A stretch of 22,366 nucleotides of DNA, taken from the IMG/VR virus record IMGVR_UViG_3300030333_000959, positions 1 through 22,366 of that record; one strand, 5' to 3'. Within the stretch, counting starts at the first letter, position 1. The number at the start of each line of letters is the position of its first letter. The position numbers were made by a program, and so were the translations under genes. Positions 18,742 to 21,095 of this stretch are shown here, one piece after another. The DNA is from a virus. The notes under the pieces are model-generated. The model searched no databases, had not been told where the DNA came from, and saw only the letters and a list, made by a program, of their open reading frames with translations.

Positions 18742-18912
18742 ATGACTATTAACTACAAATTACAAAAAGATAGTGATACTGGACTAACTCAAATTGTTAT
18801 TAAAACAGAAGGAGCAGAAAAAACGTGGATTCCTTTTTATTCAGGCAACACAGACTACCAAGAATACTTAGCGTGGGTAGCAGAAGGTAACACTGCAGAT
18901 GCAGCAGATTAA
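18742..18912 (+). CDS. Small conserved cyanophage protein, 56 residues
   Basis: A short gene translating to 56 residues: MTINYKLQKDSDTG at the start, a WIPFYSGN motif, then YQEYLAWVAEGNT and an acidic end. I recall similar small proteins beside fibre genes in marine cyanophages, but no function is known to me. It starts 3 bases after the fibre gene stop and ends overlapping the next gene by 14 bases. The frame is intact, starts with ATG, and has the composition of its neighbours, which supports a real gene. Confidence 0.7.
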   Translation: MTINYKLQKDSDTGLTQIVIKTEGAEKTWIPFYSGNTDYQEYLAWVAEGNTADAAD

Positions 18913-19300
18913 ACTACCAAATGTTAATCTTCCTAAACCTATACCTTTAGGTCCACTACAAATTGAATTTAAACCACCTAATGCTCAGATTCCATCTTAT
19001 AAACCTATAATAGTACCACCTACTGATTTAGAAGCTCCTGAAGGAGTAGAAGAAGAGACTACAGAAGAAGTACCAGCAGCACCTAGTTTGAAAATACCTG
19101 TTATAGATATTCAGATGCCAATACCAGAACCTGCAGTAGTTGTAACTGCTGTTACTACTGCTGTGGTAGCTGTGGCTACTACATCTATAACATCATCTTT
19201 ATTTGAACCAATTAAAAAAAAAGTACAAAAATTCCTACAAGGTAAAGTAGATAAATGGAAGCAAAAGCGAAAGAAGAAAAAGGACTCTTCGGTAAATTAA
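18899..19300 (+). CDS. Proline-rich single-span membrane protein
   Basis: A 133-residue protein. Residues 1-75 are rich in Pro (LPNVNLPKPIPLGPLQIEF and similar), with an acidic patch at about 44-58. Residues 79-102 are a hydrophobic segment made of Val, Ala and Thr. Residues 105-128 are very basic (KKK, KWKQKRKKKK). By the positive-inside rule, the C-terminus would be cytoplasmic and the Pro-rich arm in the periplasm, with no cleavable signal. I recall the family as conserved in cyanophages without known function. Lying next to a holin-like gene, it could take part in lysis or envelope disruption, but this is inference. A nine-A run lies at 19214-19222 with the frame intact. Confidence 0.7.
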   Translation: MQQIKLPNVNLPKPIPLGPLQIEFKPPNAQIPSYKPIIVPPTDLEAPEGVEEETTEEVPAAPSLKIPVIDIQMPIPEPAVVVTAVTTAVVAVATTSITSSLFEPIKKKVQKFLQGKVDKWKQKRKKKKDSSVN

Positions 19301-19539
19301 AAGATGCTGCAGAAGATCAAGAACATCAAATACAAATTTTAGGTACATTTGTCCGTCTTGGAGTTGTAGTTTGGAGCGGATTTATCATTACGTTAAATTA
19401 CGTAGAAATACCTATGATTAAGAAAAGTCCAGGTGGTGATATCACGTTCCCTGCTTCGATTTTTACTGGAGCACTTGCAACTTTCGGGTTGACTACTGGT
19501 AACGGTAACGGTAACAAAAAAGAAAAACCAAAACAATGA
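19255..19539 (+). CDS. Small two-helix membrane protein, holin candidate
   Basis: A 94-residue protein. Residues 1-28 are charged and amphipathic (KLKDAAEDQEHQIQILG). A first hydrophobic segment covers about 30-52 (TFVRLGVVVWSGFIITLNYV) and a second about 63-82 (ITFPASIFTGALATFGLTTG). The C-terminal tail is hydrophilic and Lys-rich. Size, two membrane segments and a charged tail fit a class II type holin, and the T7 holin also lies close to the terminase genes. No endolysin is encoded in the window, so the role is inferred. The gene overlaps the upstream one by 46 bases in another frame, and its stop overlaps the next ATG (ATGA). Confidence 0.7.
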   Translation: MEAKAKEEKGLFGKLKDAAEDQEHQIQILGTFVRLGVVVWSGFIITLNYVEIPMIKKSPGGDITFPASIFTGALATFGLTTGNGNGNKKEKPKQ

Positions 19540-19907
19540 AGAAATGGCTAGTACTCTTATTACTGGCAGCACCCACGGTAGCGAGAGCAGAGTTAGTGAC
19601 TCCCAATTTTACACAGGGATCAATGAACTCAACAACAACAACGACTCAAGAGATTGTAGAGGAAATAACTACGACAACCTATGGGTCCGCATTAAACAAA
19701 TGGAGTGGGGAAAATATAACCCATACATCAGCCTCATCAGGAGGTATAGTCGATTCAGATTCGGTATTCACCTTACACACAGCTGGAGATCCCTTCTCAC
19801 TAGAAGTGGTATCAAGAGCAGCAAGTCAGGTGCTATCCGTAGAAGTAATAGACAGAGAAATAGATACCTCGTCTACTACGGTCTCCTTATCAGTCTTCTC
19901 TCAGTAG
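19536..19907 (+). CDS. Exported small protein with signal peptide
   Basis: A 123-residue protein. Residues 1-18 are a clear Sec signal peptide (two Lys, then WLVLLLLAAPTVARA), with predicted cleavage before Glu19. The mature part is Thr/Ser-rich: ELVTPNFTQGSMNSTTTTTQ near the start and a TSSTTVSLSVFSQ end. I recall homologues with the same start and SVFSQ end in marine cyanomyoviruses, without a known role. Start ATG 19536 overlaps the upstream stop (ATGA). Nearly all of the gene is also open in the -1 frame (from 19544), and the next exported protein's signal peptide is encoded in that frame over its 3' end. Confidence 0.75.
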   Translation: MKKWLVLLLLAAPTVARAELVTPNFTQGSMNSTTTTTQEIVEEITTTTYGSALNKWSGENITHTSASSGGIVDSDSVFTLHTAGDPFSLEVVSRAASQVLSVEVIDREIDTSSTTVSLSVFSQ

Positions 19908-20428
19908 CACCAGTACGTGCAGAGGAGGAGAACAATAACGTAAGTAATCCAGTAGCTGCTGCGACTGGGAATGTGACCAATCAGGCGGTGCAATTTCAAA
20001 ATAATGGAGCACCATCCAGGCAGCACTATGGACCTAACATTTCGTGCAATGGAAGTACAATGACTTTCTCACCATTCTATATGGGAAATCATACGACTCC
20101 TTGGGATATAGATGATGAATTAGGTATGGAACAAAAGAACTATACCGTTGCCGAAAACTGGGGGGCACAGATTAACTTTATGGTTCCTTTAGACCGTAGA
20201 GGCTTAAAGCGTTGTCTCTCCATTGCTGCAAGGCAAGAAGAGAAGATGCGTCTTGACTACGAATTAGTCAGAACATTGAAATGTGCAGAACTACAGCAAA
20301 AAGGTTTTATGTTAAAGCCTGGTAGTCGTGTAGCAAACATGTGTAGTGATGTAATTCCTATCACTGCTTATTTAAAATCTATAGCCCCTAAAGAAGAAAA
20401 AACTAAACCTTGGTATAAACCATTTTAA
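19835..20428 (+). CDS. Second exported protein, four cysteines, start codon uncertain
   Basis: The frame is open from ATG 19544, but the part that looks like a protein starts near 19835. It begins with a basic n-region (RRSNRQRNR), a hydrophobic core (YLVYYGLLISLLSV) and an APVRA site giving cleavage after 19921. The mature part has NPVAAATGNVTNQAVQFQNN, ISCNGSTMTFSPFYMGNHTT, FMVPLDRRG and MRLDYELVRTLKCAELQQKG, and four Cys that could form two periplasmic disulfides. I recall close relatives in cyanophages as separate signal-peptide proteins. The only in-frame ATGs upstream are 19544 and 19700, with no GTG or TTG. ATC 19835 with AGG before it is a possible rare start. Function is unknown. Confidence 0.7.
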   Translation: MRRSNRQRNRYLVYYGLLISLLSVAPVRAEEENNNVSNPVAAATGNVTNQAVQFQNNGAPSRQHYGPNISCNGSTMTFSPFYMGNHTTPWDIDDELGMEQKNYTVAENWGAQINFMVPLDRRGLKRCLSIAARQEEKMRLDYELVRTLKCAELQQKGFMLKPGSRVANMCSDVIPITAYLKSIAPKEEKTKPWYKPF

Positions 20429-20430
20429 CT

Positions 20431-20535
20431 ATGACATACGCTAACAAAAGTGCAAGAGAACTATTAGCTGAAAAAGAAGCAGCAGCTAAAGCTAAAAAAG
20501 CAACTAAGAAATCCACTAAAACTACTAAAGAATAA
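20431..20535 (+). CDS. Micro-gene, 34-residue Ala/Lys-rich peptide
   Basis: ATG 20431 opens a 34-residue frame: MTYANKSARELLAEKEAAAK, followed by Lys/Ala/Thr-rich residues. It begins 2 bases after the preceding stop and its TAA shares a base with the next ATG (TAATG). The regular packing and acceptable start support translation. The protein is probably helical and basic at its C-terminus. I recall comparable Ala/Lys-rich peptides near cyanophage terminase genes, with no known function. It may also serve only to couple translation. Confidence 0.55.
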   Translation: MTYANKSARELLAEKEAAAKAKKATKKSTKTTKE

Positions 20536-20693
20536 TGATCCTAATTTTAAAGCCTATCCTTTTCGCCTTTTTAAAGTCCAAAGCAGTTAAGCAACTTGTT
20601 GTTGACCTGTTAGAAGGCTTGGCAAAATCCACAGATAACACACTTGATGATCAAGCTGTGGCACTGGTAAAGAAGAATTTATTACCTGAATAA
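20535..20693 (+). CDS. Small conserved phage protein, 52 residues
   Basis: ATG 20535 opens a 52-residue frame: MILILKPILFAFLKSKAVKQ, then LVVDLLEGLAKSTDNTLDDQ and a C-terminus LVKKNLLPE. The first 14 residues are strongly hydrophobic with basic residues after them, so it may bind membrane at its N-terminus. The second half is an acidic amphipathic helix. I recall close relatives throughout marine cyanophages, but no function. Both ends are TAATG overlaps with neighbours, placing it in a tight unit with the small terminase candidate. Confidence 0.7.
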   Translation: MILILKPILFAFLKSKAVKQLVVDLLEGLAKSTDNTLDDQAVALVKKNLLPE

Positions 20694-20836
20694 TGACTAA
20701 AGCTAGAGCAACTGAAGCTCAGTTCAATGAGCTGCATAATTTAATTACTAAGGAGTTTCTAGAAAGAATAAAAGCTGGTGAAGCCACTACTGCAGACCTT
20801 AAAGCAGCAGCTGATTGGCTGTCTAATGGCCCCTAA
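20693..20836 (+). CDS. Candidate terminase small subunit (T7 gp18-like position)
   Basis: ATG 20693 opens a 47-residue frame with ATEAQFNELHNLITKEFLER, then IKAGEATTADLKAAADWL. The pattern LHxLxxxxLxxRIKxGEATxxDLxAAxxWL resembles small terminase (DNA maturase A) proteins of T7-like phages, which have a helix followed by a G-E-A-T turn and a second helix. T7 gp18 has 89 residues, so this is short. In the family the small subunit recognises or regulates the packaging start and partners terminase large subunit, which is encoded about 640 bases downstream. The assignment rests on motif recall and context. The 3' end overlaps the next gene by 11 bases. Confidence 0.6.
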   Translation: MTKARATEAQFNELHNLITKEFLERIKAGEATTADLKAAADWLSNGP

Positions 20837-21095
20837 GAAACTCCCGCTTTCTAAACTCAAAAAGAGTGCCCGTAACTACCGCAAGAACCCTTTGTCTAGG
20901 ATAAAGAAAAACTCAGCACAAAGGAAAAGGAATAAGCTCAAGATCAATAAAAAGTACCGTGCTGAACTAAATAGAGCCAGGCGTAAAGCTGGTGTCTATG
21001 GTAAAGGCGGTAAAGATTTCTCTCATACTAAATCTGGAAAGTTAGTTAGAGAGAATCCATCTACAAACCGAGCAAGAAACCGTGGTAGGAAATGA
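20826..21095 (+). CDS. Highly basic small protein, probable nucleic-acid binder
   Basis: An 89-residue protein from ATG 20826. The frame reaches back to ATG 20778, but that start adds 16 unlikely residues inside the preceding gene. By count, 33 of 89 residues are Lys or Arg (37%). Landmarks are PLSKLKKSARNYRKNPLSR, AELNRARRKAGVYGKGGKD, SHTKSGKLVREN and NRARNRGRK. I recall relatives with the SHTKSGKLV motif in many marine phages, without known function. The charge predicts DNA or RNA binding. Placement between the small-terminase candidate and an HNH gene hints at packaging. The stop overlaps the next ATG (ATGA). Confidence 0.75.
   Translation: MAPKKLPLSKLKKSARNYRKNPLSRIKKNSAQRKRNKLKINKKYRAELNRARRKAGVYGKGGKDFSHTKSGKLVRENPSTNRARNRGRK

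Follow-up and report, generated by a model that had tools for sequence, protein, structure and literature searches.

Overlapping genes for two predicted exported proteins as a candidate exit module of cyanophages

The closest described systems are the two-component spanins of lambda (Rz/Rz1) and T7 (gp18.5/gp18.7) and the holin-endolysin cassettes of the cyanophages P60 and S-CBP42. Here we describe two genes, named A and B, in a 22,366-nt stretch of viral DNA (IMG/VR record IMGVR_UViG_3300030333_000959, positions 1 to 22,366; hereafter the window). Like the spanins, A and B are an apparently late gene pair for exported or membrane proteins, the two reading frames overlapping or one lying inside the other, and in T7-like phages both pairs lie near the small terminase gene. 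A, however, has no lipobox, the hydrophobic segment of B ends in a conserved small-x-Ala motif and given this motif is probably cleaved, and gene order and sequences are unrelated; a spanin identity is not claimed. With the holin-endolysin cassettes A/B share a genomic slot, and the two are mutually exclusive in the tested records, but A and B have predicted Sec signals of their own, and searches of Pfam, NCBIfam and PHROGs at the thresholds used assigned neither to a family of peptidoglycan hydrolases. Nor is B claimed to be an endolysin, since it matches no enzyme family.

For cyanomyoviruses, passages of Sullivan et al. 2010 (PMC3037559) describe a mobile gene cluster (T4-GC 218, 219, 234, 235 and 237), grouped "for functional reasons" and absent from S-PM2, in agreement with the lack of A and B in S-PM2 here. 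This cluster includes B (T4-GC235) and the exported protein encoded upstream of A (T4-GC237); A itself (T4-GC236) is off its list, and these passages make no mention of an overlap, a late promoter, T7-like homologues or an exit role. How such phages leave the host is a question in itself: the P-SSP7 annotation names no endolysin in all but its last 2.4 kb, and P-SSP7, P-SSM2, Syn9 and others are listed as spanin-less in the part of Kongari et al. 2018 (PMC6139136) used here, which proposes fragile outer membranes or non-lipoprotein alternatives for spanin-less cyanophages.

Layout of the locus and the two predicted exported proteins

In the window, fibre-like genes are followed by genes for a Pro-rich protein and a DUF6450 protein, then by A, B and the small terminase gene (Table 1), the end of the DUF6450 gene and the start of A overlapping by 4 bases. 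Directly 3′ of B lies a Lys/Ala-rich open frame of 34 codons (20432-20536), and a very basic protein (phrog_6437, 20778-21095, start uncertain) is encoded in another frame across part of the small terminase gene.

Table 1. Coordinates of features at the A/B locus of the window
Feature	Position	Strand	Evidence or remark
Pro-rich protein, one hydrophobic stretch, phrog_9426; module membership uncertain	18899..19300	+	profile, hydrophobicity
DUF6450 two-TM protein, holin-like candidate	19255..19539	+	PF20048, 4.1e-30
Gene A, 123 aa, predicted exported, phrog_650 (gp166/T4-GC236 family)	19536..19907	+	8.7e-32
Predicted signal sequence of A, MKKWLVLLLLAAPTVARA	19536..19589	+	read from sequence, hydrophobicity
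C-terminal SVFSQ of A	19890..19904	+	S-x-F-x-Q terminal in 62/62 aligned sequences
Gene B open frame, phrog_848/phrog_1755 (gp165/T4-GC235 family), -1 frame to A	19544..20428	+	1.3e-56; 5.5e-53
Alternative start ATG of B (A+164)	19700..19702	+	caution: A's Lys-Trp codons alone yield a start codon
Predicted hydrophobic signal segment of B, YLVYYGLLISLLSVAPVRA	19865..19921	+	sequence, hydrophobicity
Predicted mature part of B, 168 aa	19922..20425	+	conserved Cys codons 20045, 20213, 20282, 20342
T7 gp18-like small terminase, marks T7-like slot, outside A/B pair	20693..20836	+	PF11123, 1e-9

The N terminus of A, MKKWLVLLLLAAPTVARA followed by E, reads as a Sec-type signal sequence, its best 17-residue stretch averaging 1.9 on the Kyte-Doolittle scale, and the P-SSP7 record itself labels A a "possible SignalP predicted signalling protein." B has a single hydrophobic stretch: residues 56-72 (counted from the 19700 start) average 1.79 on the same scale and run into PVRA followed by E, and the 53-residue basic region N-terminal to this stretch holds 13 K/R and a single D/E. 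The signal sequences of both proteins end in small-x-Ala in T7-like as well as T4-like relatives. We infer export and cleavage of A and B from these features, as read from the sequence. An initial sequence-only reading had presented the two as consecutive exported genes, the second with four Cys suited to periplasmic disulfides and a body conserved in cyanophages. The Sec-type signals agree with this, as do the four Cys of mature B, which are kept in 77/77 aligned sequences (15 of these have six) and may form disulfides, and the conservation of B, which matches 455 phage records; the genes, however, are not merely consecutive, as that reading missed both their out-of-frame overlap and their wide occurrence in T4-like phages. 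Cys is absent from 58 of 62 A sequences, the other four having a single Cys inside the signal sequence (LALC-AP), which does not form a lipobox. We rejected the idea that the SVFSQ end of A is a by-product of B coding, because the window and S-RIM8 differ in the place on B to which the end of A maps, whereas S-x-F-x-Q closes all 62 aligned sequences.

PHROGs assigns no function to phrog_650 (A) or to phrog_848 and phrog_1755 (B). The model of B (mean pLDDT 62) has short strands followed by a 35-residue helix; Foldseek gave no match in the PDB (best E 0.51) and 14 matches among viral models at E 0.001 or better, of which the nine that bear names come from cyanophages or uncultured phages and are either uncharacterised or called Gp165. 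The model of A (pLDDT 79) has two long strands; it gave no Foldseek match at E 0.001 and a Z of at most 3.9 in VIA-align. In these searches it weakly resembles pore stems built of beta hairpins, as well as tail and collar chains of phages, which is a hint at most. A sequence search of solved structures with the A and B profiles gave nothing significant. The structure search proposed in the initial reading thus returned no relative of known function for either protein, and the literature searched names no function for A or B.

Out-of-frame overlap and a late-promoter motif

A and B overlap in different frames, and in the window clade A lies almost entirely within the open frame of B. Among 324 sampled loci, 304 contain both genes (254 distinct A stretches), and in 300 of these 304 the frame of B is -1 relative to that of A. 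B could start at either ATG 19544 or ATG 19700, its signal segment lying deep within the frame, and in the window no ATG, GTG or TTG is nearer to this segment than 19700; P-SSP7, SS120-1, S-RIM8 and P-SCSP2 have local B start codons. In one locus, L062, a stop falls immediately 5′ of A+164, so that the 19700 start would be needed there. Conservation of the A+164 start codon was dropped as proof of the B start, given that the Lys-Trp codons of A (AAA/AAG then TGG) by themselves make ATG/GTG at +8 and +164.

We used instead a codon-shuffle test, in which the synonymous codons of A were shuffled and the expected open B frame was computed. For the window clade (87 distinct sequences, more than 3% apart), the B frame is open throughout the overlap, taken as the last 207 coding bases of A, in 87/87 sequences against 6.6% expected; the corresponding figures are 11/12 against 22% in the P-SSP7 clade and 56/58 against 8% in T4-like relatives, the sequences sharing ancestry and so not being independent trials. 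Upstream of the overlap the number of stops matches the prediction (3.67 against 3.68 in the P-SSP7 clade, 3.34 against 3.38 in T4-like relatives), indicating that the test is calibrated. The avoidance of stops in the shared stretch, in both T7-like and T4-like relatives, makes both frames look translated. Within the window clade the frame is also open upstream of A+164 in 86/87 sequences against 33% expected: of six stop-capable columns in this part, T is found in one sequence only, although other synonymous bases vary at most of these columns. This suggests that B is probably read there from about 19544 and that A is nearly embedded in B. Across 59 sequences, diversity at fourfold sites comes to 0.31 for the overlap and 0.37 for A codons 1-54, against 0.48 to 0.52 for DUF6450 and for two blocks that code for B alone; it shows no drop in the P-SSP7 clade (0.26 before the overlap, 0.25 inside, 12 sequences). 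In P-SCSP2 (L316:3640-4474) the relative frame of A and B differs and a 56-nt overlap is retained; by this comparison the overlap has outlasted a frame change.

In T4-like phages, the motif [CAT]TAAATA, which we take to be the T4-like late promoter, is found 5′ of the exported gene preceding A in 56 of 60 distinct upstream sequences (a set that includes MED4-117, though it is not T4-like), against a background of 0.038 per 120 nt. All 56 have one copy at -36 to -28, with two extra copies at -63, and the four without it are S-RIM8, MED4-117, L208 and L231. Upstream of DUF6450 the motif is present in S-RIM8 and S-SM1, and none was found there in P-SSM2, P-SSM4, Syn9 or MED4-117. The A/B pair is thus apparently made late in infection.

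Distribution, the DUF6450 partner and endolysin exclusion

The phage records matched by B are named Synechococcus, Prochlorococcus, cyanophage, marine, uncultured or Tiamatvirus, and an S-RIM8 B query gave 461 matches; A gave 51 matches with the window query (E 0.1) and 412 with the S-RIM8 query. Among the carriers are T7-like phages, T4-like phages, the lake phage DSL-LC02, S-TIP37 and MED4-117, the last with 38.8 kb and a gene named "central tail fiber J." Gene order A then B, with overlap and profile matches, places the pair in the gp166 and gp165 families. In P-SSM2 the other exported protein, A and B follow in this order, and in both P-SSM2 and P-SCSP2 the A/B genes form a small island on the strand opposite to both neighbours. 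The name "OMP1 protein" on the S-RIM8 upstream gene record was not adopted, NCBIfam giving no match. A cellular genome collection yielded 17 homologous loci titled as picocyanobacteria and unrelated taxa, most of them presumed to be phage contigs; four with a cyanophage-like B (L326, L327, L335 and L339), titled Flavobacteriaceae, Neomarinimicrobiota, Euryarchaeota and Nonlabens, are probably misbinned contigs of phages.

DUF6450, a 94-aa protein with two hydrophobic stretches (1.82 and 1.48) and a lysis-cassette-type position, is above the cut-off in 10/10 tested A/B-positive records and in two of 12 A/B-negative ones (S-N03 and S-B68). It adjoins A/B in podoviruses and MED4-117 and lies some kilobases away in T4-like phages. 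Profile searches found none of A, B and DUF6450 in Syn5, P60, PSS2, S-CBS4, Pf-WMP4 and S-PM2. The holin-like, two-helix neighbour of the initial reading is thus a DUF6450 protein, a likely candidate for a holin or timer.

Genome-wide profile searches for lysis families covered phrog_181, a GH19-like endolysin, and SLT (PF01464), the latter above the cut-off in none of 18 records. The endolysin is found in 0/12 A/B-positive records, and also not in Syn5, PSS2, S-CBS4, Pf-WMP4 or S-PM2, five phages which carry neither A/B nor phrog_181; the other seven records tested have one or more. Conversely, A and B are absent from ten endolysin-positive cyanophages, save for a marginal A match in S-B68 (E 0.04, within a 3110-codon frame), but these ten were chosen for having the endolysin and several are close relatives, so that the exclusion amounts to few independent events. 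The annotated endolysin of P60 and S-CBP42 lies between the fibre and small terminase genes, i.e., in the A/B slot, and that of S-B28, WH11-B and S31-C1 lies elsewhere. The slot before the small terminase also holds phrog_12220 in the A/B-less podoviruses P60 (gp38, L373:8062-8325) and Syn5 (gp47, L372:4393-4653); this protein apparently consists of one N-terminal TM and a coiled coil, and may serve those phages in exit. S-CREM2, a T4-like cyanophage without A/B, has a rich lysis-like cluster in which a C39-family peptidase gene (L379:959-2835) lies directly 5′ of two annotated lysozyme genes. Comparison with lysis genes across cyanophages, as the initial reading had advised, brought out the endolysin exclusion. 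Among 12 tested phages from the spanin-less list, six have A/B (P-SSP7, P-SSM2, P-SSM4, Syn9, S-RSM4 and S-SM1) and six do not, so that A/B cannot be the whole answer.

A proposed exit module and competing readings

Based on these results, we propose that in carriers A and B, together with DUF6450, may form a late, Sec-exported exit (lysis) module replacing endolysin and spanin, a reading that we hold tentatively, at a little short of an even chance. Exported by Sec, the products of the two overlapping late genes would do their work in the periplasm and at the outer membrane as progeny leave the cyanobacterium; A would sit at the outer membrane, where its long beta hairpins might assemble into rings. 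The module, completed by DUF6450 as the likely holin or timer, would take over the task that the endolysin has in other phages, and perhaps also that of their spanins. The sequences show dual coding, conservation, the T4-like late motif, DUF6450 co-occurrence and exclusion of the GH19-like endolysin. The initial suggestion of a cyanobacterium-specific lysis or envelope module accordingly gains from the distribution, the late motif, the two-TM company and this exclusion; the lysis role itself, like the action of A at the outer membrane, we infer, and neither protein has a family or fold of known function. We consider unlikely a bolder version, in which several unrelated kinds of cyanophage share one exit system without known endolysin or spanin, A forming outer-membrane beta-hairpin rings or pores, disulfide-bonded B coupling them to the wall, Sec export preceding lysis and DUF6450 triggering it.

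A and B might instead remodel the infected-cell envelope late and without lysis, for example in superinfection exclusion or receptor shielding. The signal sequences, periplasm-suited Cys and late-promoter motif would fit, as would the restriction of A/B to cyanophage-type records (judged by name), but the endolysin exclusion and the slot shared with P60 and S-CBP42 would stay unexplained, and exclusion genes are usually early; we regard this alternative as rather improbable. Late expression fits virion proteins equally well, which counts against the exit module. Were A and B virion or virion-assembly proteins, such as tail or needle parts, with signal-like segments serving another end, their place after fibre genes and the weak likeness of the A model to tail and collar chains would also be accounted for; small-x-Ala signal sequences in both proteins of T7-like and T4-like relatives, and an operon lying apart from the structural genes in P-SCSP2, P-SSM2 and MED4-117, make such a role distinctly unlikely. 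We give similarly little credence to the idea that B, possibly assisted by A, represents a new family of Sec-exported peptidoglycan hydrolases, so that the module has its own endolysin: the mutual exclusion with the GH19-like endolysin and invariant polar residues of B such as E114 and D143 would suit it, but B has no Pfam or NCBIfam match of note, no recognised catalytic motif and, for a model of modest pLDDT, no PDB fold match. Finally, production of B by a -1 frameshift from A, giving a fused exported protein besides A rather than using a start of its own, is very improbable, for although the prevailing -1 frame, XXXYYYZ heptamers in the frame of A in 57/87 sequences of the window clade (most often at A+65 or A+68) and the distance of the nearest start codon in the window point that way, the heptamer is absent from the window and 30/87 relatives and may stem from the Thr-Pro-Asn-Phe codons of A, stops are avoided also 5′ of its site (codons 16 and 18), and four phages have the local B start codons named above.

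The lysis of Prochlorococcus and Synechococcus by viruses is important for the carbon cycle of the ocean. As parts of the proposed exit module, A and B would provide a named two-gene candidate for host exit by marine cyanophages, in phages that are genetically tractable, and the pair illustrates clearly how dual coding over a long stretch has been retained in different phage families.
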